Shown piece by piece: positions 26,737 through 40,311 of a stretch of 41,816 nucleotides of DNA. A program made the translations under genes and the position numbers. The notes under the pieces were generated by a model. It was not told the origin of the DNA. It saw only the letters and a program-made list of their open reading frames with translations, and ran no database searches. The number at the start of each line of letters is the position of its first letter. The stretch's first letter is position 1. This stretch comes from Desulfuromonadales bacterium. Lineage in GTDB: Bacteria; Desulfobacterota; Desulfuromonadia; Desulfuromonadales; Syntrophotaleaceae. The stretch covers positions 1 through 41,816 of the forward strand of contig JAUWLU010000004.1 of the NCBI GenBank assembly GCA_030613545.1, read 5' to 3'.

Positions 26737-27640
26737 TTACTTTTTAGGGTGCATGATCGGACCGTTGGGCCAGACCGGATAGAAAAAGGGGAAATCGCCG
26801 GTTTTCTCCTTGCCGAAGTCGGCCATGAAATTCTGGATTTCGGGCGACAGGATGAAGTCGGCCAGGGCCTTGGCCCCCCCCATGGTTGACCTGGGGGTGA
26901 CGGGCCGGATTGGCTTCCATGAGGATATAGGGGCGGCGCATGGTGGGGTCCTGGTCGAGCAGGATCTGCGCGTTGCCAAAGGGGTGCTTTTGCAATACCG
27001 AGGGCATGCGGCCGAAGATGAAATAGGCCTTCCGCTCGTTAGCAAAGAGCGGAATGTTGCCGGCATAAGGTGCTTCATCCTGAATGAACCATTCGCCGCT
27101 CGGCCGAATGCCGGCTCGTTTCCACAGGGTGTGACCGACCTCACGGGGACCGTTGCTGTTGACGTCGAGAAAGGTGCTCTGTGTCGCGGCGATGCGTTTC
27201 AGGGCCTCGGCGCCGTCCTTGAGACCGCGGATGCCGGCCGGGTCGGCGGCCGGACCGTAAATAACCAGGTCGTTGCGGGCGCAGGGCCGCATGTTGATGC
27301 CGTAGCCGTCGGCCACCAAGTCGGTGGTGATGTCGCCGGCATGCATCACCAGAAAGTCCGCTTCGCCACTGCGGAAGGGTACCGAAATGGTCGGCCGCGG
27401 GCCGCTGGCGACCAACTCGACCCGGTAACCGGTCTTGGCCTCGAAGCGTTGCACGATCACATCCCACAGGCCGGTCATGGTCATGCCGCCGATCACGCAG
27501 GCGCGCACCGTGTGTTGGTTGCTTGCCGGTTCGGTGTTCGCCTTGTCTGGCGATGCGGCCAGGGCCGTCTGGGCCAGCAGCAGGCAGCCGAGCAGGACCG
27601 CGAGAAGGCCGCGGGCGGGGCTGATGATCGCTGATTTCAT
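26737..27640 (-). pseudogene. TupA-like periplasmic substrate-binding protein, frameshifted at a poly-G(8)
   Basis: Signal peptide; FEAKTGYRVELVASG..GEADFLVMHA..DGYGINMRPCARNDLVIYGPAADPAGI..LKRIAATQSTFL..LWKRAGIRPSGEWF resembles TupA. The expected C-terminus (GAKALADFILSPEIQNFMADFGKEKTGDFPFFYPVWPNGPIMHPKK) is in another frame after C8 at 26874-26881. Confidence 0.8.
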
Positions 27641-27743
27641 GAAGTCCCTCCTTCAAATGCTTGTTGTGTCGACAGACCCAATAAGCCGCCGCGAAATATT
27701 AAATGTAAATAGGCTGGCCGGTGGCAAGATGGCAGTTTTGCGG

Positions 27744-27767
27744 CGTTGTTTAGGGGAATGTATAGCG
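27744..27767. promoter_or_regulatory. Weak ModE-like 24-bp palindrome in the divergent intergenic region
   Basis: CGTTGTTTAGGGGAATGTATAGCG; CG..CG ends and TATAGCG arm, one arm degenerate. Confidence 0.3.
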
Positions 27768-27835
27768 AAGTTTTTTGGAGTGCAAGTTAGAAGTGTTTTA
27801 AGCGGGACTTGTTCTGCTGCCGGTTGCCAGGGAGG

Positions 27836-27859
27836 CGCTATATTGATTGCTTGACAACG
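27836..27859. promoter_or_regulatory. ModE-like 24-bp operator candidate, overlapping -35
   Basis: CGCTATATTGATTGCTTGACAACG; 16/24 by eye against the E. coli modA operator as recalled (CGTTATATTGTCGCCTACATAACG). Confidence 0.45.
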
Positions 27860-27879
27860 CTTGCAGGGCTTCGTTATAG
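27851..27879 (+). promoter_or_regulatory. Sigma70-type promoter of TonB-dependent receptor gene
   Basis: TTGACA (27851-27856), 17 bp spacer, TTATAG (27874-27879). Confidence 0.65.
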
Positions 27880-27895
27880 TCGCGCAATTATAGCG
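27872..27895. promoter_or_regulatory. ModE-like 24-bp operator candidate, overlapping -10
   Basis: CGTTATAGTCGCGCAATTATAGCG; inverted arms CGTTATA/TATAGCG. Confidence 0.55.
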
Positions 27896-27969
27896 GTGGA
27901 GGCCATTTTAATCCCAACGGGCACCCCTGCATTTCAAATGGACTCTTGAATGATGACAAAGGAGGATCT

Positions 27970-29925
27970 ATGAAGCACAGATTTGTTGCGGTGCTGGCCG
28001 CAATGGCAATGCTGGGTGGAGGCGCCGGGCTGGCGTCGGCCGCCACCGATGGCGTCTATCGCCTCGGCGAGGTCGTTGTCTCGGGCCAGAAGACGGGGGT
28101 CGAGGCCATCGGCAATACCCATAAAGTGACGGCGGAAGAGATCGAGCAGCGCGGTGTGCGTAGTCTCGACGAGGCCATCAATCTGTTGCCGGGGGTGCAG
28201 GTCCGCACCGGTGGCGACGGCGCGCCGCGCATCGATATCCGCGGATTCCGTACCCGGCATGTCAAGTTGTTGCTGAACGGCACCCCGTTCAACGGCACCT
28301 ATGACGGCCAGTTCGATCCGAGCCTGATTTCGGTGGAGAACATCGCCGAGATCGTGGTCACCACCGGCGGCAGTTCGGTGCTGTACGGGTCGGGCGGCAA
28401 CGCCGGGGTCATCAACATCATCACCAAGAAGGGCGTCAAGGGAGCCCACGGCTCTGCGGGGGTAGAACTGGCCGAAGGGGACGCCCAGTTGCTGCGGGCC
28501 ACCGGTTCCTATGGTGGAGAGAAGTACGACCTGTTTGTCAGCGGCAGCCTGTACGACCGCGACCACTTCGAGCTGTCCGACCATTTTTCGGCGACCGCTG
28601 ATGAAGACGGTGACGAGCGGGAGAACAGCGACCGGCGGCGCAACAATGTCTTCGTCAATGTCGGCTTCGCCCCCAGCGACGCCACCCTGCTCGGTCTGAC
28701 CTTCAGCTATCTCGACGGGAAGCGCGGCAAGCCGCCGGCAATCGTGAAAGACGATTATTCCAGTCAGAAGTTTGAGCGGGAGGAAGATGCGGAAGAATTC
28801 AACTTCCAGCTGGCTCTCAGCCACGATTTTTCAGGCCCTCTGAGTCTCAAGGGCTGGGCGTATTTCAACAGCCTTGATGTGCTGGAAAGCCGCTACGATG
28901 ATGCCGATTACGACAGCCAGACAAGGAAAAGCTCCTCCCGTACCGATTCGACCACCGAGATTTCCGGGATCAATTTGCAGCTGCGCTACGGCTTCGAGCG
29001 TTTCGGCGCCTTGACCCTTGGCGGCATGTTTGAGAACAACGATTGGGAAGCCGATGGATTCTCTAATCCGGCTAACAACAATAGTGTGCCGTTTGATGAA
29101 GAGGAAGACTTCCAGCTCTACTCGGCCAGTCTCGAATACGAGGTGTCGCCCCTGCAGGACCTCGGTGTGGTGCTGGGCTTCGGCTATCATTGGCAGGACC
29201 GGGACGGGAAGGATGCGGATGATTATTCTTATCTGCTCGGTTTGTACTACGACCTTCGCGAAGGTACCCGCCTGAAAGCGTCCCACGCCCGCAAGGTGCG
29301 TTTCCCGACCCTGCGTGATCTCTACGACACAGACAAAGGGAATCCCGAACTGGATGCCGAGGTGACCTGGCATTACGAAGCCGGCATCGAGCAGGATCTG
29401 CAGGCCGAGACCATGGTCTCTCTGACCGGCTTCTACATCGACATCGAGGACTTCATCGAGGTGCCCGATGGCGATAGCCAGTTGCAAAACTTCGACGAGT
29501 ACGAGTTTTATGGGGTGGAAGTGGCGGCCGAGAATCGCTACTTCGAGCGCCTGTTGCTGCGGGCCAGCTATTCTTACATGCACACTGAGGATAAAGGTTC
29601 CGACAGCGAGCGGGACGAACTGCAGAACCGGCCCGAGCACAAGACAACTCTGGAAGCCACCTACCAGCTGCCTTGGGGATTGAGCGCTTACGGTTCTGCC
29701 CGGTATGTGACGAACAGCCACTACTACAACAAGAAGGATTGGACCGACCAGCAGCGCCTGCCGGAATATGTTTTGGTTGATTTCAAGATCAACAAAAGCG
29801 CGGCTAATGGCGCCCTTGATCTCTATATCGGCATCGATAATCTGTTCGACGAGGACTACGAGCAGAGCTATGCCTTCCCCCAGGCCGGCCGTACTTTCTA
29901 CGGCGGTGTGAACTGGAAGTTCTGA
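27970..29925 (+). CDS. TonB-dependent outer membrane receptor
   Basis: RBS GGAGG at 27961; signal peptide; plug domain (LDEAINLLPGVQVRTGGDGAPRIDIRGF, GGSSVLYGSGGNAGVINIITKKG); C-terminal beta-barrel ending GRTFYGGVNWKF. Confidence 0.93.
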   Translation: MKHRFVAVLAAMAMLGGGAGLASAATDGVYRLGEVVVSGQKTGVEAIGNTHKVTAEEIEQRGVRSLDEAINLLPGVQVRTGGDGAPRIDIRGFRTRHVKLLLNGTPFNGTYDGQFDPSLISVENIAEIVVTTGGSSVLYGSGGNAGVINIITKKGVKGAHGSAGVELAEGDAQLLRATGSYGGEKYDLFVSGSLYDRDHFELSDHFSATADEDGDERENSDRRRNNVFVNVGFAPSDATLLGLTFSYLDGKRGKPPAIVKDDYSSQKFEREEDAEEFNFQLALSHDFSGPLSLKGWAYFNSLDVLESRYDDADYDSQTRKSSSRTDSTTEISGINLQLRYGFERFGALTLGGMFENNDWEADGFSNPANNNSVPFDEEEDFQLYSASLEYEVSPLQDLGVVLGFGYHWQDRDGKDADDYSYLLGLYYDLREGTRLKASHARKVRFPTLRDLYDTDKGNPELDAEVTWHYEAGIEQDLQAETMVSLTGFYIDIEDFIEVPDGDSQLQNFDEYEFYGVEVAAENRYFERLLLRASYSYMHTEDKGSDSERDELQNRPEHKTTLEATYQLPWGLSAYGSARYVTNSHYYNKKDWTDQQRLPEYVLVDFKINKSAANGALDLYIGIDNLFDEDYEQSYAFPQAGRTFYGGVNWKF

Positions 29926-29951
29926 TCGAACGAAGCTGGTTTAGACAACAA

Positions 29952-29987
29952 AAACGGCCGGTCCCGAAAGGGGCTGGCCGTTTTGTA
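29952..29987 (+). terminator. Rho-independent terminator after TonB receptor
   Basis: AAAACGGCCGGTCCC-GAAA-GGGGCTGGCCGTTTT hairpin ending in T-rich tract. Confidence 0.85.
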
Positions 29988-30000
29988 TTCAAAGGCATTT

Positions 30001-30162
30001 TCTCACGCGGTGACGCGGAGGCGCGGAGAAAGGCTTAACGGATGATCAGGTTGTTATTTGCTAATCGAGGTTTGCGGTGACTGTAGATCAGGATGCTTGA
30101 TTCTGACAACAGGATATTCGTCTTTGATCTTCTCCGCGTCCCCGCGTCTCCGCGTGAGTCGA
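30001..30162. repeat. Palindromic short-period repeat (CGCGGAGA type)
   Basis: TCTCACGCGGTGACGCGGAGGCGCGGAGAA inverted against TTCTCCGCGTCCCCGCGTCTCCGCGTGAG. Confidence 0.75.
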
Positions 30163-30184
30163 TTTTTACTGGACAAGTAAATGC

Positions 30185-31359
30185 TCAGCTCTCCTCCGCC
30201 AAGCCGATGGCCCGCTCCACCAGCCGGTAGACCTCAGGCAGAGGCCGGCCACTGTCGTTCGCCAACTGGCGGCAGCTCTCAAATTCCGGTACCGTGCGCA
30301 GTCGTAGATTCCCTTCATAAAAATGCTTGACCTGAACCGGACCGAGGGGGGTGGCGACAGTGCCCGCTTCGCTGCGCAGTTTGTAACGCCGGGACTCGCG
30401 CCAGCGTACCCCGGCGGCGCTGCTTTCGCGCAGGATTTTCCGCCCCAGTTGTTCGGACAAATGGGGCGGGGCGATGACCGTCAAAGCGAGGCCGGGGCGG
30501 TTTTTTTTCATCTGCAGGGCGCTGTAACCGACGTCGAGGGCGCCGGCTGCCAGCAGGTTGTCCATCAGGGCGCCGAGCCATTCGGGGTTGGCGTCGTCGA
30601 GGTGGCTTTCGAGAATCGCCACCCGGTCCTGGTCGAGGGCCTCTTCGGCGTCCGTTTCACCGAGCAGACCGCGCAGCAGATTGGGCCGGTCGCTCAGCTC
30701 CCGCTCGCCGGCCCCGTAGCCGACTGTTTGCAGGGTCATGGCCGGCAGGGTGCCGAAGGTAGCGATCTCGGCGGCGATGGCGGCACCGGTGGGGGTGACC
30801 AGTTCGATTCCGGCGCCATCGTCGACCACCGGCAGACCGCGCAGAATCTCCAGGGTGGCCGGGGCCGGCAGGGGAAAGCTGCCGTGGGCGCAGCGCACCG
30901 TGCCGCGGGTCATCGGCAGAGGGGCGCAGACGATCCGCGGATTGCCCAGCAGATGCAGACCGATGGCGGCGCCGACGATGTCGACGATGGAGTCGAGGGC
31001 GCCGACCTCGTGGAAATGGACCGTTTCCAGGGCCACGCCATGAATCTTGGCTTCCGCTTCACCGATGCGGCGGAAGATGCGTCGCGCCAGTTCTTTGGGG
31101 AGCCGGGCCAGGTCGCTGTCCGCCAGCATGCGGTCGATGCCGCTCCAGGTGCGGTGGTGATGTTGCTCCTCACAAAGCACCGTCAGCTTGCTGGCGGTGA
31201 TGGACTGGCGCTGGACTTTTTTCAGTTCCAGGCGGTAGCCGGCAACGGGCAGCTTGGCCAGTTGCTGTTCAAGGTCGGCCAGGGGCAGGCCGAGATCGAG
31301 CAGCAGGCCGAGAAACATGTCACCGGAGATGCCGGAGAAGGTGTCGAGAAACAGGGTCT

Positions 31360-31363
<4 letters not shown>
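30185..31363 (-). CDS. larC: Nickel-pincer cofactor biosynthesis protein LarC (single ORF)
   Basis: MKTLFLDTFSGISGDMFLGLLLDLG, VHFHEVGALDSIVDIVG, TPTGAAIAAEI, ILESHLDDANPEW. Confidence 0.94.
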
Positions 31364-32118
<755 letters not shown>

Positions 32119-32202
32119 GAAAACTCGCGGTAGGGGCAGTGTCGGCGCTCGGCCCAGTGCTCAAAGGGCACCTCTACCGAACTCATGCTGCCTGGCTGAC
32201 GG

Positions 32203-33297
32203 TTAAAAAGTCTCGTCGATGGCTTGAAAATCCAGCTCAGTTTCGGCCAAAGATTGTAGCAGGGTGATCTTCTGCCGGTCCTCGGCGTCGATCTTGGCGA
32301 CATCGTTGGCGATGGCCGAAAAGACTTCGGCGCTGCTGAAGCTTTTGGCGCGCATATAGGGGATCTGGCTGCGGTCGAGAATCTGCTGGGTGACCTTAGA
32401 GATGGGAATCAGGCCGGGTATCACCAGTCCGGCAATCTTATCCCGGTAGTCGGAAATGTTGTACAGGGCGGCCAGGGTTACCAGCAGCTCGTTGCGGGTG
32501 CTGGTGACGATCAACAGGGACGAATCTTCCAGCAGGTCGTGAACCCGTTGAGTGGAGGCGGCACCGAGCTGTACGTGGTTTATGATGCGCGGTCCGGCGT
32601 TCTGCTCGCCCTTGAGGGTGACATCGAGCAGTTGGGCGATGTGCTTGAGGGTTGGATTGGCCAGCACCGGTGAGAAGTCGAAGCCGGCGACGACACGAAA
32701 GGGCTGGTCGGTAAAAGCCTGCTGCAGGTAGCCCATGGTCTGTTGCCGTTTGTCCGGCAGCAGCTTATTGATCAGCAGCATCCGCAGGTCGGCCTGTTCC
32801 TGGCGGAGCAGGGCCATATTGAGGTGAACATTGTCGATCACTCGGCCGATGCCGGCATCGGTCACCATCAGAATCGGCGCGTCGAGCAATCGAGCCATGC
32901 GGGCATTGTTCAGACCGATCACCGAGCCGACGCCGCTATGACCGGCCCCCTCGATGATCAGCAGGTCGCAGCGTCGCTCCAGTTCGCGGGCCGCCTGCAG
33001 CACTTGCCCCTCGAGGTCGTCGGCCGAGATCCTTCGATCGAGAATCTGGCGGGTCGAGTTGGGCTTCAAAACCACCGGCGACATGTAATCGAGGTCGTCT
33101 TTCAGGTCGTAGATTCGGGCAAGCAGGGCGGCATCCTGATCGACCCAGCGACCCCGAAACATGGTCGGCTTCGGTCCCAGCGGTTTCATAAAGCCGACCC
33201 GGCGATACTTTTTACGGGCCATATGCAGCAGGGCGATGCTGGTGGTGGTCTTGCCACACTGCTGGCCGGTAGCGGCGATAAAGATTTTTTTGCACAC
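32203..33297 (-). CDS. Phosphotransacetylase-N-terminal-like P-loop protein with DRTGG-type domain
   Basis: IFIAATGQQCGKTTTSIALL P-loop, LLIIEGAGHSGVGSVIGLNNARMARLLDAPILMV (BioD/Pta-like), C-terminal DRTGG-like region. Confidence 0.8.
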   Translation of the reverse strand: MCKKIFIAATGQQCGKTTTSIALLHMARKKYRRVGFMKPLGPKPTMFRGRWVDQDAALLARIYDLKDDLDYMSPVVLKPNSTRQILDRRISADDLEGQVLQAARELERRCDLLIIEGAGHSGVGSVIGLNNARMARLLDAPILMVTDAGIGRVIDNVHLNMALLRQEQADLRMLLINKLLPDKRQQTMGYLQQAFTDQPFRVVAGFDFSPVLANPTLKHIAQLLDVTLKGEQNAGPRIINHVQLGAASTQRVHDLLEDSSLLIVTSTRNELLVTLAALYNISDYRDKIAGLVIPGLIPISKVTQQILDRSQIPYMRAKSFSSAEVFSAIANDVAKIDAEDRQKITLLQSLAETELDFQAIDETF

Positions 33298-33342
33298 GGC
33301 TTTGCCTTCCGGGCGTAAATGTTCAGTTTGTGATTTCGCACC

Positions 33343-33370
33343 ATTATATAGGCAAGCCCGGCCATTTCAA
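33343..33370 (-). promoter_or_regulatory. Sigma70-type promoter for the minus-strand Pta-like/larB/larC operon
   Basis: Minus strand TTGAAA (33365-33370), 16 bp spacer, TATAAT (33343-33348). Confidence 0.6.
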
Positions 33371-33480
33371 AGACCTGTTAACGCGTCTGGACTCATGAGC
33401 GGTTTTCGGCCTGTTACGGAACGGCCAAGGAAGGTTGCCGGATAAAATTTAATCCATCTTGCCAGGTCATGGGTAAATGT

Positions 33481-33509
33481 TTGACTCAGCGATACAAGTT
33501 CGTTATATT
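33481..33509 (+). promoter_or_regulatory. Sigma70-type promoter for the plus-strand ECF operon
   Basis: TTGACT (33481-33486), 17 bp spacer, TATATT (33504-33509). Confidence 0.6.
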
Positions 33510-33524
33510 CCGCTGGGGATAGCG
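33501..33524. promoter_or_regulatory. ModE-like 24-bp operator candidate, overlapping -10
   Basis: CGTTATATTCCGCTGGGGATAGCG; first 9 bp identical to the E. coli modA operator as recalled, same total length. Confidence 0.6.
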
Positions 33525-33578
33525 GTGCTTGATTGTGCCGAATGGCGCACTGGCGGCCTCGGCAATGCTGTTAAGGAA

Positions 33579-33728
33579 GATGGCGTCGCAAAAAGTCCAC
33601 CCTGCTACGTTGCAGTGCTTTTTCAGGACTTCGACATACACCATGTATGCCTTCACCCCCGAAAAACCACTACGCCTTGTAGAACGAAATTTTTGCTTAG
33701 CCATCATATGGCTTTTTGCGAAAGCATC
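33579..33728 (+). repeat. MITE-like element copy D, 150 bp, flanked by AAGGAA direct repeats
   Basis: GATGGCGTCGCAAAAAGTCC ... GGCTTTTTGCGAAAGCATC; AAGGAA at 33573-33578 and 33729-33734. Confidence 0.92.
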
Positions 33729-33783
33729 AAGGAACAAACCGGCGACTTTGAGGTTTGCCGGTGAGAACGGATATATTCGGACG

Positions 33784-35148
33784 ATGGGCGTAATTTTGCG
33801 GTTGAAGAAATTTTCCTTCACCTATCCGGAGGTGGAGACGCCCGTCCTGCAGGATCTCGATCTGGAGGTCGAGGCCGGTCGCTGTTACTGTCTGACCGGA
33901 CCGACCGGTTCGGGCAAGACGACCCTGGCTCTGGCCCTCAAGGGGCTGCTGAGTGCCGGCCGGTACGAGGGTGAGATCGATATGCCTTCGGTGGACGGTT
34001 CGCCCGCCATGGCGGTCGGCATGGTGTTGCAGGATCCGGAGGTGCAGTTGCTGACCAGCACGGTGGGCGCGGAGGTGGCCTTCGGTCTGGAAAATCTCTG
34101 TGTTGAGCCGGCGGAGATGCCGCAGCGGGTGATCACTGCTCTGCAGGCGGTAGGGCTCGAAAAGCCGCTGGATTATCCGGTGGACAAGCTGTCCATGGGA
34201 CAGAAGTATCGTCTGCTGATCGCTGCGCTGCTGGTCATGGAGCCGCGTCTGCTGATCCTCGACGAGCCGGGTGCGCAGCTCGATCCGGAAGGTCTCGACC
34301 TGTTGCGCAAGTGCCTGCGGCGCCTCAAGCAGAGCGGGGTCGCGATCATCCTTTGCGAACACCGCCCCGAGTCGCTGCTGAGCGAAATCGACACCTTCTG
34401 GCAGCTCGACGGCAGCGGCAAATTCGCCGATGGCCGCTACCGGGGGGAAGAGCACGCCCCCCTTGAGCCGCCGCCTCCATCGACGACCGCTGAAGCGGAA
34501 CCGGTGCTGCAAGTGCAGGACCTGTCCTTTGTCGGGGTTGGCGAACAGCCGGTCTGGTCGCAGGTCTCCTTTGCCGTCGACAAGGGCCGGCGTTATGCCG
34601 TTACCGGCCTGAATGGTACCGGCAAGACCACCTTGCTGCGCTGCCTGGCCGGTTTTCTCAGTCCCCAGCAGGGAGCGGTGCAGATCCTCGGCGGCGCACC
34701 CGATGCCTATCGCCTGCGCGGCCGGCTCGGTTGCCTGTTTCAGAATCCGCAAAAACAGATCTTTGAAAACACCGTTGGCGAGGAGGTGGCTTTTCCGCTG
34801 AAACGTTTCGGGCTCTTAAGCGGGACCGTGGAAGAGCGAACCGCGGAGGCCCTGGCCGCCTGCGGCATCAGCCATCTGGTCGACCAGTCGCCCCACAAGC
34901 TCAGCTACGGTCAGAAACATCTGGTGGCTCTGGCCTCGGTGCTGGCCCCCCGTCCTGAACTGCTGCTGCTTGATGATCCCTTGGCCGGACTCGATGACGG
35001 CCACAGCCGGGCGGTGATGGAATTGCTGGTTCATTACAATCTGCAGCACGGCATGACCATGCTCTGGACCTTCCACGATCCCGAGGCCTGGCCGGGTTGG
35101 GCCGATCAGGTGCTGCACCTTGAAGGAGGCCGCCTTGTTGCCCGGTAA
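33784..35148 (+). CDS. Fused two-domain ECF-type energy-coupling ATPase
   Basis: Two Walker A motifs ([28 protein letters not shown]), two Walker B (LLILDEPGAQLDPEG, LLLLDDPLAGLDDG), Q-loop VLQDPEVQLL and LFQNPQKQIFENTVGEEVAF. Start reset to 33784; the supplied ORF runs into the MITE. Confidence 0.93.
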   Translation: MGVILRLKKFSFTYPEVETPVLQDLDLEVEAGRCYCLTGPTGSGKTTLALALKGLLSAGRYEGEIDMPSVDGSPAMAVGMVLQDPEVQLLTSTVGAEVAFGLENLCVEPAEMPQRVITALQAVGLEKPLDYPVDKLSMGQKYRLLIAALLVMEPRLLILDEPGAQLDPEGLDLLRKCLRRLKQSGVAIILCEHRPESLLSEIDTFWQLDGSGKFADGRYRGEEHAPLEPPPPSTTAEAEPVLQVQDLSFVGVGEQPVWSQVSFAVDKGRRYAVTGLNGTGKTTLLRCLAGFLSPQQGAVQILGGAPDAYRLRGRLGCLFQNPQKQIFENTVGEEVAFPLKRFGLLSGTVEERTAEALAACGISHLVDQSPHKLSYGQKHLVALASVLAPRPELLLLDDPLAGLDDGHSRAVMELLVHYNLQHGMTMLWTFHDPEAWPGWADQVLHLEGGRLVAR

Positions 35149-35827
35149 GCTCTTTTCGACTCGAAAGGTCTGCCTGCCGTCGGTCTCCCTTGAAGGCCCG
35201 GCTCCGGCCGGTGACGCGGCGCGGGTCGGTCTGCGCATGCTGCTGGCCCTGACCCTTTCCTGTCTGGCCTTTGCCGCCCGCACCATCCCTTTTCTGCTGG
35301 TACTGACCGCTATCGATCTGGCCCTGCTCTGGTGGCTGCGCGGCAAACAGCTGTCCCTGCGACGGGAACTCAAGGCTTTCGCCTGGCAGACCCTGGTCAT
35401 TCTGATGCTTTATCTGGTCCGGTTCCGTGACCTGGCCGGTCTCTGGGGCGGTTTCAAGATTTCCTGGCAGCTCTTTCTGGCCTTGCTGCCGAGCATGGTT
35501 TTTGTTCGCAGCACCTCTCAGACGCGCATTGTTCAGGCCCTTAACCGGGTCATGCCCTGCCGCATGGCTTTTGTGCTCAGCACCTGTCTCAAGTTTGCGC
35601 CTCAGCTGTTGGCGGAGGTGCGCAGCATCTACGAAGGGCAGGTACTGCGCGGAGCGCGCATTCTGCCCCGGGATCTGGTGAAACCCTGGCACTGGTTCGA
35701 TCTGCTGCATTGCGTGGTGGTGCCGGCGGTGGTGCAAAGTATGGCTCTGGCCGGCAACATCGCTCTGGCGGCTCGAGCCCGCGATTTTGGTAGCCAACCG
35801 CGACGCAGCTGCTGGCCTGGACTTTAA
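35120..35827 (+). CDS. ECF transporter T component (CbiQ/EcfT family)
   Basis: LLALTLSCLAFAARTIPFLLVLTAIDLALLWW; coupling-helix ARGARILPRDL and C-terminal MALAGNIALAARARDFG; start may be TTG at 35135. Confidence 0.82.
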   Translation: MKEAALLPGKLFSTRKVCLPSVSLEGPAPAGDAARVGLRMLLALTLSCLAFAARTIPFLLVLTAIDLALLWWLRGKQLSLRRELKAFAWQTLVILMLYLVRFRDLAGLWGGFKISWQLFLALLPSMVFVRSTSQTRIVQALNRVMPCRMAFVLSTCLKFAPQLLAEVRSIYEGQVLRGARILPRDLVKPWHWFDLLHCVVVPAVVQSMALAGNIALAARARDFGSQPRRSCWPGL

Positions 35828-35895
35828 TTGTTTACCGCAAAGGGCCATCCCAGGCTGTTTTGCAACACTCGGCTGAACGGGAGAACCATCCGATT

Positions 35896-36447
35896 ATGAA
35901 TCCAGTTGTTGAACAAGCCGGCGGCCTGTTCCGTTTGTCCCTTAAAGAGGCCCTGTTCATTGGCTTTTGCGCCGTCTTTGCGGTGCTGGCCCGGATGATG
36001 CTGCGGCTGCATCTGCATATCTCCGGTCATGCCATGCTGGTGACCGCTTTCTTTCTGCTGCTGGCCCGCGGCAGTGTCCGCTACCGTTTCGGCGCCAGTT
36101 TCGCCGGGCTGTTGGCCGGCAGCGCGTCGATCTTTCTCGGCTTTGCCAAGAGCGGCCCCTTCATGCTGGTCAAGTATCTGGCTGTGGCCCTGGTCATCGA
36201 CCTGGCCGGTTTGCTGATGCCGGGTCTGTTTCGTAACTATTTCTGGTGCGCCCTGGTCGGCGGTTGCGCCGGCGCGACCAAGTTTTTCACCGCCTATAGT
36301 GTGAACTTTCTGGCCGGCATGGACCGCACGGTTAATTTTCAAGCCTCGCTGTTCGAAGCGGCTGGCGCTATTTTGTTCGGGGTACTTGGCGGTCTGTTGG
36401 TCCCCGTGGTTCTCCGCCGTTTGCATGCCTACGGCGTAATATCGTAA
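35896..36447 (+). CDS. Integral membrane protein, candidate ECF substrate-binding (S) component
   Basis: ~6 hydrophobic segments, ~183 aa, directly downstream of ECF A and T genes; RLHLHISGHAML near TM1-2. Confidence 0.6.
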   Translation: MNPVVEQAGGLFRLSLKEALFIGFCAVFAVLARMMLRLHLHISGHAMLVTAFFLLLARGSVRYRFGASFAGLLAGSASIFLGFAKSGPFMLVKYLAVALVIDLAGLLMPGLFRNYFWCALVGGCAGATKFFTAYSVNFLAGMDRTVNFQASLFEAAGAILFGVLGGLLVPVVLRRLHAYGVIS

Positions 36448-36483
36448 GGAGCGGCGCTAGAGTGCCGCCAACAAGGTGACAAG

Positions 36484-37224
36484 ATGAACGTACTGATCTG
36501 TATCGACGACACGGATAATCTCGAGTCCCGGGGCACCGGGGAACTGGCCACCATTCTGGCTGAAGAAATCGAACGACGCTCCTGGGGTAGCAGCGATTTC
36601 GTCACCCGCCACCAGCTGTTGGTCCATCCCGACGTGCCCTATACCTCCCATAACAGCTCCATGTGTTTTGCCGCCGATATCGACCTGGCCATTCTCGATT
36701 CGCTGATCGCCTATGCCGGCGATTTCCTGCGCGAGGAGAGTGCTGTCGGTTCGGATCCGGGTTTATGCGTATCGGTGATCGACCAGTTGGCCGATCCCGA
36801 GGCGGTTATCGCTTTTGGTCGTTCGGCCAAAGAGGAGGTGCTGAACAAAAAGCTAGCCTACGATCTGGCGACCCAACTCGGCGTGCACCTTTCCGAGCAT
36901 GGCGGCACCGGTCAGGGAGTGGTCGGGGCACTGGCCGGCATCGGTCTGCGCTTAAGTGGCAACGACGGCCGGATGAAGGGCTGGCTGCGGATTCAGACCC
37001 ACGATGGTCTGGCCAGCGTCGGTGATATCATGGCCCAGACCGACCTTGGCGGGGTGCGCACTCTCGATGGCGCATTGCTGTCGGCGACGGAAATGGTGGA
37101 AATAGAAAGCAAGCCCAAGGCCGTGCTGCTCGATGGAAAGATCTACATGATGGTTTCGCCGGTGACCGATGGCGGCCGGGTGCGCTGGCGGACCACGCCG
37201 CGCAGTCAACTGAAAAAGTTTTGA
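36484..37224 (+). CDS. TiaS-like protein with N-terminal IDDTD kinase-type domain
   Basis: MNVLICIDDTDNLESRGTGELATILAEEIE resembles the TiaS threonine/cytidine-kinase domain (IDDTD motif); 246 aa, shorter than full-length archaeal TiaS. Confidence 0.65.
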   Translation: MNVLICIDDTDNLESRGTGELATILAEEIERRSWGSSDFVTRHQLLVHPDVPYTSHNSSMCFAADIDLAILDSLIAYAGDFLREESAVGSDPGLCVSVIDQLADPEAVIAFGRSAKEEVLNKKLAYDLATQLGVHLSEHGGTGQGVVGALAGIGLRLSGNDGRMKGWLRIQTHDGLASVGDIMAQTDLGGVRTLDGALLSATEMVEIESKPKAVLLDGKIYMMVSPVTDGGRVRWRTTPRSQLKKF

Positions 37225-37237
37225 AAGGAGTTTCTCT

Positions 37238-37441
37238 ATGTGGCTGAAGGATACTCAGGGCAAGAAGGCGTTTCGCCACGGTCATGATGCCTTTAACCGG
37301 GCCAGCGAGGCGGCTGCGGAGTGCGGTGATTTTCGTCCGGACGTGGAGGAAGAGTGGGTGGCCGATGAAGAGCGGTCCTGCTACAACTGCCGCCTGCGGC
37401 GCTGGACCGCCGAGTCCTTTGTCTGTCTGCTGCCGGCCTGA
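37238..37441 (+). CDS. Small Cys-containing protein
   Basis: 67 aa, GAAAGGAG RBS upstream of ATG; CYNCRLRRWTAESFVC. Confidence 0.6.
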   Translation: MWLKDTQGKKAFRHGHDAFNRASEAAAECGDFRPDVEEEWVADEERSCYNCRLRRWTAESFVCLLPA

Positions 37442-37466
37442 TCCGGATCGAACCTGACGAAAGGTT

Positions 37467-37616
37467 GATGGCGTCGCAAAAAGTCCGTCCTCCGGCGTTG
37501 CAGCGCTTTTTCAGGACTTCGACATACTGTATGTATGCCTTCACCCCTGAAAAACCACTACGCCTTGTAGGCCGAAGTTTTTGCTTAACCATCTCATGAC
37601 TTTTTGCGAAAGCATC
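37467..37616 (+). repeat. MITE-like element copy E, 150 bp, flanked by AAAGGTT direct repeats
   Basis: GATGGCGTCGCAAAAAGTCC ... GACTTTTTGCGAAAGCATC; AAAGGTT at 37460-37466 and 37617-37623. Confidence 0.93.
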
Positions 37617-37629
37617 AAAGGTTGGAACC

Positions 37630-38454
37630 ATGCGTTTTGTTGGAATCGTTGCCGTCTCCCTGCTGCTGTTGGCCTCTGGAGTTTCGTCAGCTGCCGAGTG
37701 GGTGCAGGAGAGTCCCGGACAAAAAGCCTATTACGACAGCCGGGGCCAGCTCGAGCGGTTGGAAATCGATGCCGATGGCGACGGCCGCTTTGAGGCGGAA
37801 GAGCGCTATCGCAGCCAGCGCCGTGTCGAGCGGCGCGAGGATCTCGATGGCGACGGTCAGTGGGAACGACAGTACCTCTGGCATAAGGACGGTTCGGCGG
37901 AGTTGATCGAGCAGGGTCGCAAGGGGAAGCTGCAAAAGACCTTTTATACCGCCGACGGTTCCGTGGCGCGGATCGAGAAGGATGGCGATCGGGACGGCAA
38001 GGCGGAATCGGTCTGGGAATATAAAGCCGGGGTGCTACAGCGGGTCAGCAAACCCCGCGGGGTCTGGCACTATCAAAACGGCAAGCTGAGCCGGGCCGAG
38101 CTCGACGAGGACCGTAACGGCCGTGTCGAGCGGATCGAATACTATCAGGATGCAAATCGCCTGGCCAAAGTCGAGGAACTGGCGGCCAACGGCAAGGTGC
38201 GCAGCACCTGGCACTATGGCGCCAACGGCAAGCCGCAGCGGGCCGAAGAGGATACGGACGGCGATGGTCGCCTCGATCTTCAGCGGCGCTACCATGCCAA
38301 CGGCACTATGGAACAGATCATCGATGCCGATGAGAACGGCGTGCCGGAGATCCGCGAGCTGTTCAGCGCCGCCGGCAGTTTGATCAGCCGCGAAGAGGAT
38401 CTCGATGGTGACGGGGTTTTCGACTTGCGCACCGGAAAGCTAGCCAAACACTGA
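37630..38454 (+). CDS. Secreted/periplasmic protein with seven DxDxDG-type repeats
   Basis: Signal peptide MRFVGIVAVSLLLLASGVSSAAE; DADGDGRFE, DLDGDGQWE, DGDRDGKAE, DEDRNGRVE, DTDGDGRLD, DADENGVPE, DLDGDGVFD. Confidence 0.8.
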   Translation: MRFVGIVAVSLLLLASGVSSAAEWVQESPGQKAYYDSRGQLERLEIDADGDGRFEAEERYRSQRRVERREDLDGDGQWERQYLWHKDGSAELIEQGRKGKLQKTFYTADGSVARIEKDGDRDGKAESVWEYKAGVLQRVSKPRGVWHYQNGKLSRAELDEDRNGRVERIEYYQDANRLAKVEELAANGKVRSTWHYGANGKPQRAEEDTDGDGRLDLQRRYHANGTMEQIIDADENGVPEIRELFSAAGSLISREEDLDGDGVFDLRTGKLAKH

Positions 38455-38459
38455 ACTTT

Positions 38460-38491
38460 GATGGCGTCACATGACTTTTTGTGAAAGCATC
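38460..38491 (+). repeat. Short (internally deleted) MITE-like element copy F
   Basis: GATGGCGTCACATGACTTTTTGTGAAAGCATC flanked by AACTTT (38454-38459, 38492-38497). Confidence 0.85.
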
Positions 38492-38515
38492 AACTTTGGG
38501 GAGGAGAAGCGATAC

Positions 38516-39211
38516 ATGGAAAGTCTCGTTGCCTTTTTAAGCAAGGCTGGTCCCATCGGCATCGCCATCGTCGGCTCGTCGGTGATTGCGCTGTTTATCA
38601 TAATCGAACGCTGCTGGGCCTTTCGCCAGCTGCGGTTCAAGGATGCCCGCCTGCTGCACCGCTTGCGCAAACGGGCCGTCGCAGGATCCTATGCCGAGGC
38701 CATGGCCCTGGTGCGGGAGGAGTCTCATCCCCTGGCGGTAGCCATGACACCGGTATTAACCCGCCTCGATGGGCCGCAACGGACCACTCGCGCAGCCCTG
38801 GAAAAGGCCATAGGCCACGTGGCGGCTCGCGAGGTTCGTCAGCTGGAGCGTTTTTTGCCAACCCTCTTTTTGATTTCCAGCGTAACCCCGCTGCTCGGCC
38901 TTTTCGGTACCGTCACCGGCATGATCAAGGCCTTTCAGGCCATTCAACATCTCGGCGGCAAGGTTAATGCGTCGGTGCTGGCCGGCGGTATCTGGGAAGC
39001 CATGTTGACCACTGCTCTCGGCCTCGGGGTGGCGATTCCGGCTATGGTGGCGCACAACTATCTGCAAGGCAAGGTTCATGTGGTGGTGGCCGAGATCAAG
39101 GAAGAGTCGGGAGTGCTGCTCGACGAGCTGGAGGAGGCCGGTCGTTTCGATTCTGCTAGCAAGTCGGCTTCGCTGCATGAAATTAACCAAGCTCAACAGG
39201 AGATTGGCTGA
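38516..39211 (+). CDS. exbB: ExbB/MotA/TolQ-family proton channel protein
   Basis: TLFLISSVTPLLGLFGTVTGMIKAFQAI, GIWEAMLTTALGLGVAIPAMVAHNY. Confidence 0.93.
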   Translation: MESLVAFLSKAGPIGIAIVGSSVIALFIIIERCWAFRQLRFKDARLLHRLRKRAVAGSYAEAMALVREESHPLAVAMTPVLTRLDGPQRTTRAALEKAIGHVAAREVRQLERFLPTLFLISSVTPLLGLFGTVTGMIKAFQAIQHLGGKVNASVLAGGIWEAMLTTALGLGVAIPAMVAHNYLQGKVHVVVAEIKEESGVLLDELEEAGRFDSASKSASLHEINQAQQEIG

Positions 39212-39606
39212 TGGATATCCCGGTACGGACCAAAAGCACCGGGCTTAACCTGACTCCGTTGATCGATATCGTCTTTTTGTTGCTGGTCTTTTTTCTTTTG
39301 ACCACCCAGTTTATTGAAGAGGATGGTATCGGGGTCAAGCTGCCCAGTTCCAACTCAGTCACCACCCGCGATCGGGACGAGGTGGCGATAGCCATTACCC
39401 GGCAGGGGGATCTCTTTGTCCAAGGACAGCGTTTGCCCCTCGCCAGCTTGACCGCCAAGCTGGAGGAAGTTCTTGGCGCCGATACCACGGTAGTGGTGCG
39501 GGGCGATCGCGAAGTAGCTCTGCAGACCCTGGTGTCGGTGATGGAAAAGGCCAAGCAGGCCGGGGCAGCCCGGCTGGTGGTCGCAACGCTTCAAGAGGGT
39601 GGCTGA
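39211..39606 (+). CDS. exbD: ExbD/TolR-family biopolymer transport protein
   Basis: LNLTPLIDIVFLLLVFFLLTTQFIEEDGIGVKLPSS. Confidence 0.93.
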   Translation: MDIPVRTKSTGLNLTPLIDIVFLLLVFFLLTTQFIEEDGIGVKLPSSNSVTTRDRDEVAIAITRQGDLFVQGQRLPLASLTAKLEEVLGADTTVVVRGDREVALQTLVSVMEKAKQAGAARLVVATLQEGG

Positions 39607-39609
39607 GCC

Positions 39610-40311
39610 ATGGTAGCCCGACAGCGATGGGCCCTGGGAGGGTCTCTGCTCATACATGCCGGTCTGGTGTTGCTTATCGGTGCCAGCCTGATGACCCCGC
39701 AACGGGTTGTCAATCGCATCGAAATCGATCTCGAAGGGATGGCGGTCCCCAACCAGACCCTCGGTGTGCAGACGCCGGCTCCTTCGCAGATTCCCAATCA
39801 GCCCACCACCGTGGCTGTGCCGGTTCAGACCACGGTGCCTATGCATCTGCAGATGCCGCAAATGGTACCACCACGGCCGGCGACCAGTTTCGATGCCGAT
39901 GCCTCTCTGGCGGCACCCGCCGTTCCGGCATTGCCCGGGCGGCCGGCGGTTGCTCTGCAGCGACCGGTCGGAGGCACCGCCGGCGGTGGCAGCGGCAAGC
40001 GTGGCACAGGGCGCGGTTCCTCTCTCGACGGCTATTGTAATACCGTTCGCTTGCATATCGACCGGGCCAAGCGCTATCCCCGGATTGCTCAGCAGCGTCG
40101 CATCGAAGGGGTGGCCGTGGTCTCCTTTCGGCTCAGCTCCGCCGGCCTGGTCATGGCCGGCCCCGATCTGCTTAAAGGGTCCGGTTACGGCCTGGTCGAC
40201 AAGGCCGCTCTGCGGGCGGTAACCCGGGGGGCTCCCTATCCGAAATATCCCGGCCCTGCCGACCCGGCTGGCCATGCTTTTGAAGTGCCGGTCCGCTTTT
40301 ACCTGCGATAA
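39610..40311 (+). CDS. tonB: TonB-family energy transducer
   Basis: N-terminal TM, Pro-rich middle, C-terminal YPRIAQQRRIEGVAVVSFRLSSAG...VPVRFYLR TonB domain. Confidence 0.88.
   Translation: MVARQRWALGGSLLIHAGLVLLIGASLMTPQRVVNRIEIDLEGMAVPNQTLGVQTPAPSQIPNQPTTVAVPVQTTVPMHLQMPQMVPPRPATSFDADASLAAPAVPALPGRPAVALQRPVGGTAGGGSGKRGTGRGSSLDGYCNTVRLHIDRAKRYPRIAQQRRIEGVAVVSFRLSSAGLVMAGPDLLKGSGYGLVDKAALRAVTRGAPYPKYPGPADPAGHAFEVPVRFYLR

Follow-up and report, generated by a model that had tools for sequence, protein, structure and literature searches.

Molybdenum (Mo) and tungsten (W) limit anaerobic carbon and nitrogen enzymes. The described prokaryotic importers of both metals are ABC types with binding proteins, namely ModABC, TupABC and WtpABC (PMC5517513). 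Importers of the energy-coupling factor (ECF) type have previously been associated with vitamins and nickel/cobalt. Receptors for vitamin B12 can be paired with either BtuCD or ECF importers. Here, we describe a gene cassette on a contig of 41,816 nucleotides (the window; JAUWLU010000004.1) from a draft genome (G000; 2.85 Mb in 403 contigs, nearly complete), the nearest named relatives of which are Desulfuromonadales. The cassette encodes a TonB-dependent outer-membrane receptor, a complete ECF importer with A, T and S subunits and a protein resembling the N-terminal part of TiaS. It is probably a ModE-repressed scavenging system that imports a Mo/W complex.

The importer is most similar to Group I ECF systems (YkoEDC type, with a dedicated double-ATPase A subunit), with which it shares an A–T–S operon, fused ABC domains and an S fold nearest to PDB id 5edl, but its S component can be assigned to none of the described families, the importer is associated with a TonB receptor, a TiaS-like gene follows and the regulation is probably by Mo/W. 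ModE-type regulation by Mo/W would be common to the cassette and to ModABC, TupABC and WtpABC (wtpAB has the same operator in this genome, and tupABC stands beside the cassette at locus L071), but these are canonical ABC importers with binding proteins and have no ECF parts or receptor. An importer like the FecCD/BtuC-type molybdate–tungstate importer MolBCA occurs in a parallel cluster (L119) together with a TonB-dependent receptor, a TiaS-like gene, the molybdenum storage protein and MoeA; unlike the ECF importer here, it is a type II ABC importer of the inner membrane. The molybdenum storage protein MosAB (MoSto) neighbours both the cassette and TiaS-like genes, but it is a cytoplasmic store and no importer. 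Open-access literature on ECF or TonB receptors with Mo/W, on molybdophore receptors and on methanogenesis marker 11 contained no description of such a system.

Gene content and conservation of the cassette

The promoter elements and genes of the system are as follows.

27836–27859, plus strand: tandem operator, upstream ModE-like site with 2 mismatches, overlapping the -35 hexamer of the receptor promoter
27851–27880, plus strand: receptor promoter-like element TTGACA-18-TATAGT, 11 of 12 consensus positions
27872–27895, plus strand: perfect ModE-type operator, overlapping the -10 hexamer of the receptor promoter
27970–29925, plus strand: TonB-dependent outer-membrane receptor (Pfam Plug, E 4e-23; TonB_dep_Rec barrel, E 7e-39)
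33481–33509, plus strand: ECF operon promoter-like element TTGACT-17-TATATT
33501–33524, plus strand: ModE-type operator, 1 mismatch, overlapping the -10 hexamer of the ECF promoter
33784–35148, plus strand: ECF A subunit with two fused ABC ATPase domains (ECF_ATPase_1, E 2.5e-87; ABC_tran in two stretches)
35120–35827, plus strand: ECF T subunit (profile A3 of relatives against EcfT chains of the Protein Data Bank (PDB), E 9e-13)
35896–36447, plus strand: ECF S component, family not previously described (predicted structure compared with S components)
36484–37224, plus strand: TiaS-like kinase-domain protein with conserved linkage to Mo/W genes (TiaS, E 2e-8; methanogenesis marker 11, E 2e-10)
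37238–37441, plus strand: 67-residue open reading frame (ORF), a conserved neighbour of TiaS-like genes, with four invariant cysteines (CYNCR...RRW)
38513–39211, plus strand: ExbB proton channel (PF01618, E 8e-30)
39211–39606, plus strand: ExbD (PF02472, E 1e-29)
39610–40311, plus strand: TonB (TonB_C, E 1e-12)

The receptor had been predicted at the same coordinates in a first-pass annotation of this DNA, and Pfam recognizes both its plug and its barrel. It carries a TonB-box-like EVVVSG downstream of the signal peptide and is similar to siderophore and B12 receptors. The A–T–S set claimed in that annotation also holds, each subunit by a different route. The A subunit is recognized by the ECF_ATPase model, with a score slightly under the curated cut-off of a model for a single-domain A subunit. 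The T subunit is too divergent in sequence to match Pfam or NCBIfam and was identified by comparing the profile of its relatives with EcfT. The S component has no sequence match in Pfam, NCBIfam or the PDB and was identified by its predicted fold. Its AlphaFold2 model (pLDDT of 83.6) contains six helices, and the best Foldseek match is 5edl (TM-score 0.69, E 3e-3), with ThiT, PanT and RibU matching as well. Thus, the window encodes an ECF-type A subunit, a T subunit of the EcfT/CbiQ family and a six-helix S component, which by its model has a vitamin-type fold and is a member of no described S family. Three basic residues of S (R37, H45 and K85) are near-invariant among its relatives; by analogy with the usual S-component topology they would be on the ligand-binding side, which fits an anionic ligand.

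Two groups of S-like proteins were found outside the cassette. A distant S-like gene and an ecfA are located near a LarE-like gene (L079:3722-6360), which hints that other members of the S superfamily may handle different substrates. In two other families, genes for orphan S-like membrane proteins are immediate neighbours of MoSto (L081:216-623 and L082:9656-10024); these proteins share a PGHKM motif. Their matches are weak, and they are treated as a lead and not counted as members. A plasmid-borne origin was rejected for the cassette: the S component has no match in 72,556 plasmids.

The TiaS-like gene, which directly follows the S gene, and the 67-residue ORF behind it were both absent from the first-pass list. 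TiaS is a tRNA-Ile2 agmatidine synthetase, the Thr18 of which is phosphorylated. The TiaS-like protein shares with it the N-terminal kinase domain, the DDTD motif, Thr18 and a predicted fold (Foldseek match to TiaS, E 2e-9). Both the DDTD motif and T18, aligned with Thr18 of TiaS, are invariant in 12 relatives. However, only residues 1–158 align, the remainder of the 420-residue enzyme is missing here, the TiaS model score is 33 bits against a cut-off of 600, and the gene is found in a Mo/W and not a tRNA context. A viral structure library returned merely meaningless matches for the TiaS-like model. Since the DDTD motif and the Thr18 equivalent are retained, this protein could plausibly carry out an ATP-dependent reaction, either on the imported species or in metal insertion. 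The four-cysteine ORF is kept next to TiaS-like genes whether the locus is of the ECF or the MolABC type.

The conservation of the cassette was examined by a profile search for S and TiaS-like genes in 394 genomes of one phylum. The receptor, ecfA, ecfT, ecfS and TiaS-like genes are clustered in essentially every genome with a strong S match, across many families. Beyond close relatives, such loci are found in a Desulfobacteraceae metagenome-assembled genome (L017), in Desulfobulbus rhabdoformis (L018) and at L031, L032, L071-L078 and L080. The order of the genes varies, and at L076 the ECF genes are read from the other strand. S is present in 14 of the 394 genomes, 12 of which also have a TiaS-like gene (33 of 394 overall). 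The chance probability of this co-occurrence is ~1e-12, a figure inflated by the relatedness of the genomes, and two of the 12 are not clean cases: G248 has only a fragment of S next to its TiaS-like gene, and G283 has a distant S-like gene on one contig and the TiaS-like gene on another. The pairwise divergences of the receptor, A and S correlate (r of 0.83-0.93), although shared ancestry by itself would likewise push such values up.

Co-occurrence in relatives was the test on which the first-pass annotation had staked its proposal of a single envelope-spanning uptake system made up of the receptor, a TupA-like binding protein, the ECF importer and ExbB–ExbD–TonB. Receptor and ECF genes do form one cluster, to which the TiaS-like gene is to be added, and the operators and Mo/W neighbours described below agree with one system. 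The binding protein, by contrast, is dispensable to the cassette and broken here, and the TiaS-like gene and the 67-residue ORF had been overlooked. As for the energizing genes, proposed as a dedicated set, all three are confirmed by Pfam, but their membership in the cassette is mainly a feature of the family, in which ExbB–ExbD–TonB lie downstream of it together with a MORN-like protein. At L071, tonB directly follows the TiaS-like gene.

ModE-type operators and Mo/W gene neighbourhoods

Operators were searched for with the pattern CGYTATA-N10-TATARCG, built from the published ModE consensus sequence (PMC2700814). The window contains four matches with at most 2 mismatches against 0.03 expected. 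The receptor promoter has three of them (27744, 27836 and 27872), and the fourth is at the ecfA promoter (33501). The whole genome has just three sites with at most 1 mismatch, and the reversed-pattern control gave 0. These three sites precede the receptor gene, ecfA and a WtpA–WtpB pair (WtpA, E 4e-130), wtpAB being genes of a tungstate/molybdate importer. The genome also contains a full-length ModE gene with a helix-turn-helix and two Mop domains (L021:1830-2702). Within the family, 15 of the 16 regions upstream of receptor and ecfA genes have a site with at most 2 mismatches, compared to 0.05 in shuffles, and a second upstream match, ~35 bp away, recurs at L016, L022, L024, L029 and L030. 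The shared operators by which the first-pass annotation linked the two halves of the locus are therefore real as sequence matches at both promoters and conserved across the family.

The sites overlap -35 and -10 hexamers, which is the geometry of repression, and we infer from this arrangement that ModE would repress the receptor and ECF units. The presence of such operators at both the cassette and wtpAB ties the system to Mo/W supply. A 158-bp repeat (33573-33730 and 37461-37618; at least 40 copies in the genome) has one of its copies between the promoter with the ModE site and ecfA, where the operator is at -283, compared to -115 at L022.

The neighbourhoods of the cassette in other genomes have the same theme. 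The most complete example is L071, in a complete genome of the same order. There, a Moco riboswitch (RF01055, 67.6 bits) shares its strand with a gene for an AOR-type tungsten enzyme, a MoeB/ThiF homologue, modE, the receptor, ecfA-T-S, the TiaS-like gene, tonB, a porin, tupABC and moeA; a MoSto gene lies at the locus's far edge. MoSto genes are also found near the cassette at L026-L030 (their homology was established on L121 by a PDB search, MoSto beta, E 4e-66). In G361, the end of an S gene lies beside modABC (L083); since S is split over two contigs of this genome, the modABC contig presumably joins the one with the rest of S. The genome of the window itself has AFOR tungsten-enzyme genes and MoSto.

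TiaS-like genes keep this company in genomes where they are not beside an intact ECF set. In 16 of 19 such loci they adjoin MoSto, TupAB, WtpAB, ModAB or MolABC-like genes (the MolA-like identity is based on a PDB search, MolA HI_1472, E 1e-21). The parallel cluster at L119 consists of a receptor, a MolBCA-like importer, a TiaS-like gene, MoSto, a PadR regulator and MoeA. Judging from this arrangement, the inner-membrane importer that partners the receptor and TiaS-like parts seems to be of more than one type. A conserved small protein of ~70-90 residues with no NCBIfam match is encoded beside MoSto at L119:11696-11902, L121:8272-8547 and L030:1128-1343.

Proposed function and alternatives

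The combination of a TonB receptor with a vitamin-type S component suggests that the ligand is an organic Mo/W complex rather than a free oxyanion. We infer the following sequence of events for the ligand, its transport and the TiaS-like protein. At low intracellular Mo/W, ModE would leave its operators, and the receptor and ECF units would be expressed alongside WtpABC. The receptor, powered by ExbB–ExbD–TonB, would take a Mo/W complex into the periplasm, most likely the oxyanion bound to a metallophore or another organic ligand. The S component would capture the complex and the A–T module would drive its entry to the cytoplasm, where the ATP-dependent TiaS-like protein and the 67-residue cysteine protein would process it and hand the metal to MoSto for storage or to MoeA.

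Several observations weigh against this scheme. Clear ModE operators at the cassette are restricted to the family, with weak ones at L032 and before modE at L071. At least five loci (L017, L018, L072, L074 and L078) have no Mo/W gene in the stretch read. Molybdate and tungstate pass porins, and the need for a receptor is explained only if the metal is complexed. No gene for metallophore synthesis was identified, though no search was aimed at one. Finally, vitamin-type S components bind organic molecules.

A bolder reading can be put forward tentatively. The cassette may represent a separate Mo/W pathway, in which a Mo/W–organic complex, either a metallophore or an intact metal-pterin, enters by way of the receptor and the ECF importer, and the TiaS-like protein with its four-cysteine partner frees or activates the metal, a so far unrecognized step that would be common to conventional Mo/W importers.

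Direct import of free molybdate or tungstate by the ECF importer, with a receptor that merely concentrates the oxyanion and no organic ligand, would account for a TiaS-like partner shared with oxyanion importers and for the conserved or nearly conserved R37, H45 and K85. We consider it unlikely, given the vitamin-type fold of S, the lack of a sequence relation between this S family and any solved protein, and the fact that small oxyanions normally need no TonB receptor.

The imported species could instead be a ready-made metal-pterin from other cells (molybdopterin, tungstopterin or a nucleotide form), trimmed or re-activated by the TiaS-like protein. S components with the fold found here bind vitamins and their precursors, a receptor would be apt for a ligand too large for porins, and the cassette of L071 follows a Moco riboswitch and has moeA nearby. 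On the other hand, the presumed repression by the metal-sensing ModE and co-regulation with wtpAB point to metal supply, and TiaS-like genes also accompany MoSto and the plain oxyanion importers Tup, Wtp and Mod, all of which makes this a rather doubtful explanation.

A generic receptor and importer for a cobalamin- or thiamine-like vitamin, with incidental ModE regulation, is improbable. The receptor does resemble siderophore and B12 receptors and the S fold resembles thiamine S components, but Mo/W neighbours recur, and the B12/thiamine reading was rejected when neither a cobalamin nor a TPP riboswitch was found at the 14 loci searched, one of which has a Moco riboswitch. Handling of nickel or the nickel-pincer cofactor, to which larB and larC between the receptor and ECF genes, their adjacency to the cassette in several family members and the LarE-like gene close to the distant S-like ECF set of L079 might point, is hardly credible and was rejected, as larBC are on the other strand and outside the cassette in other families, LarA was not found in the genome, and the operators and neighbours are Mo/W-related.

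If the system does scavenge a Mo/W complex, the pairing of an ECF importer with a dedicated outer-membrane receptor would give cells a new route to these metals, and by implication Mo/W complexes worth scavenging would occur in sediments. The TiaS-like family, which throughout the phylum accompanies genes for the storage and transport of Mo/W, gains a testable function.

Accessory and flanking genes

The remaining genes of the region are as follows.

26744–27640, minus strand: TupA-like periplasmic binding protein, frame broken (SBP_bac_11, E 2.6e-7; TupA model, E 6e-10)
30185–32118, minus strand: larC and larB (nickel-pincer cofactor genes), between the receptor and ECF genes
32203–33297, minus strand: AAA_26/DRTGG protein, like the N-terminal part of phosphate acetyltransferase
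37630–38454, plus strand: secreted MORN-like repeat protein (weak MORN_2 match; synteny)

The TupA-like protein is an optional accessory of the cassette. As the first-pass annotation had it, its likeness to TupA is there, if distant (38.9 bits against a cut-off of 400, with the frame-broken protein as the query), and no permease or ATPase gene of a Mod, Tup or Wtp importer is adjacent to it. Its reading frame is interrupted at eight consecutive C (26874-26881). Orthologues at L024:9554-10438, L026 and L116 are intact, and so the break may be a sequencing error or mark a recent pseudogene.

The larBC genes are flanking genes and, in a genome in which LarA was not found, may serve another enzyme. 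Throughout the family, the AAA_26/DRTGG gene is a conserved neighbour of larBC or the cassette. The MORN-like gene sits between the TiaS-like gene and exbB, and is present in most relatives of the family.
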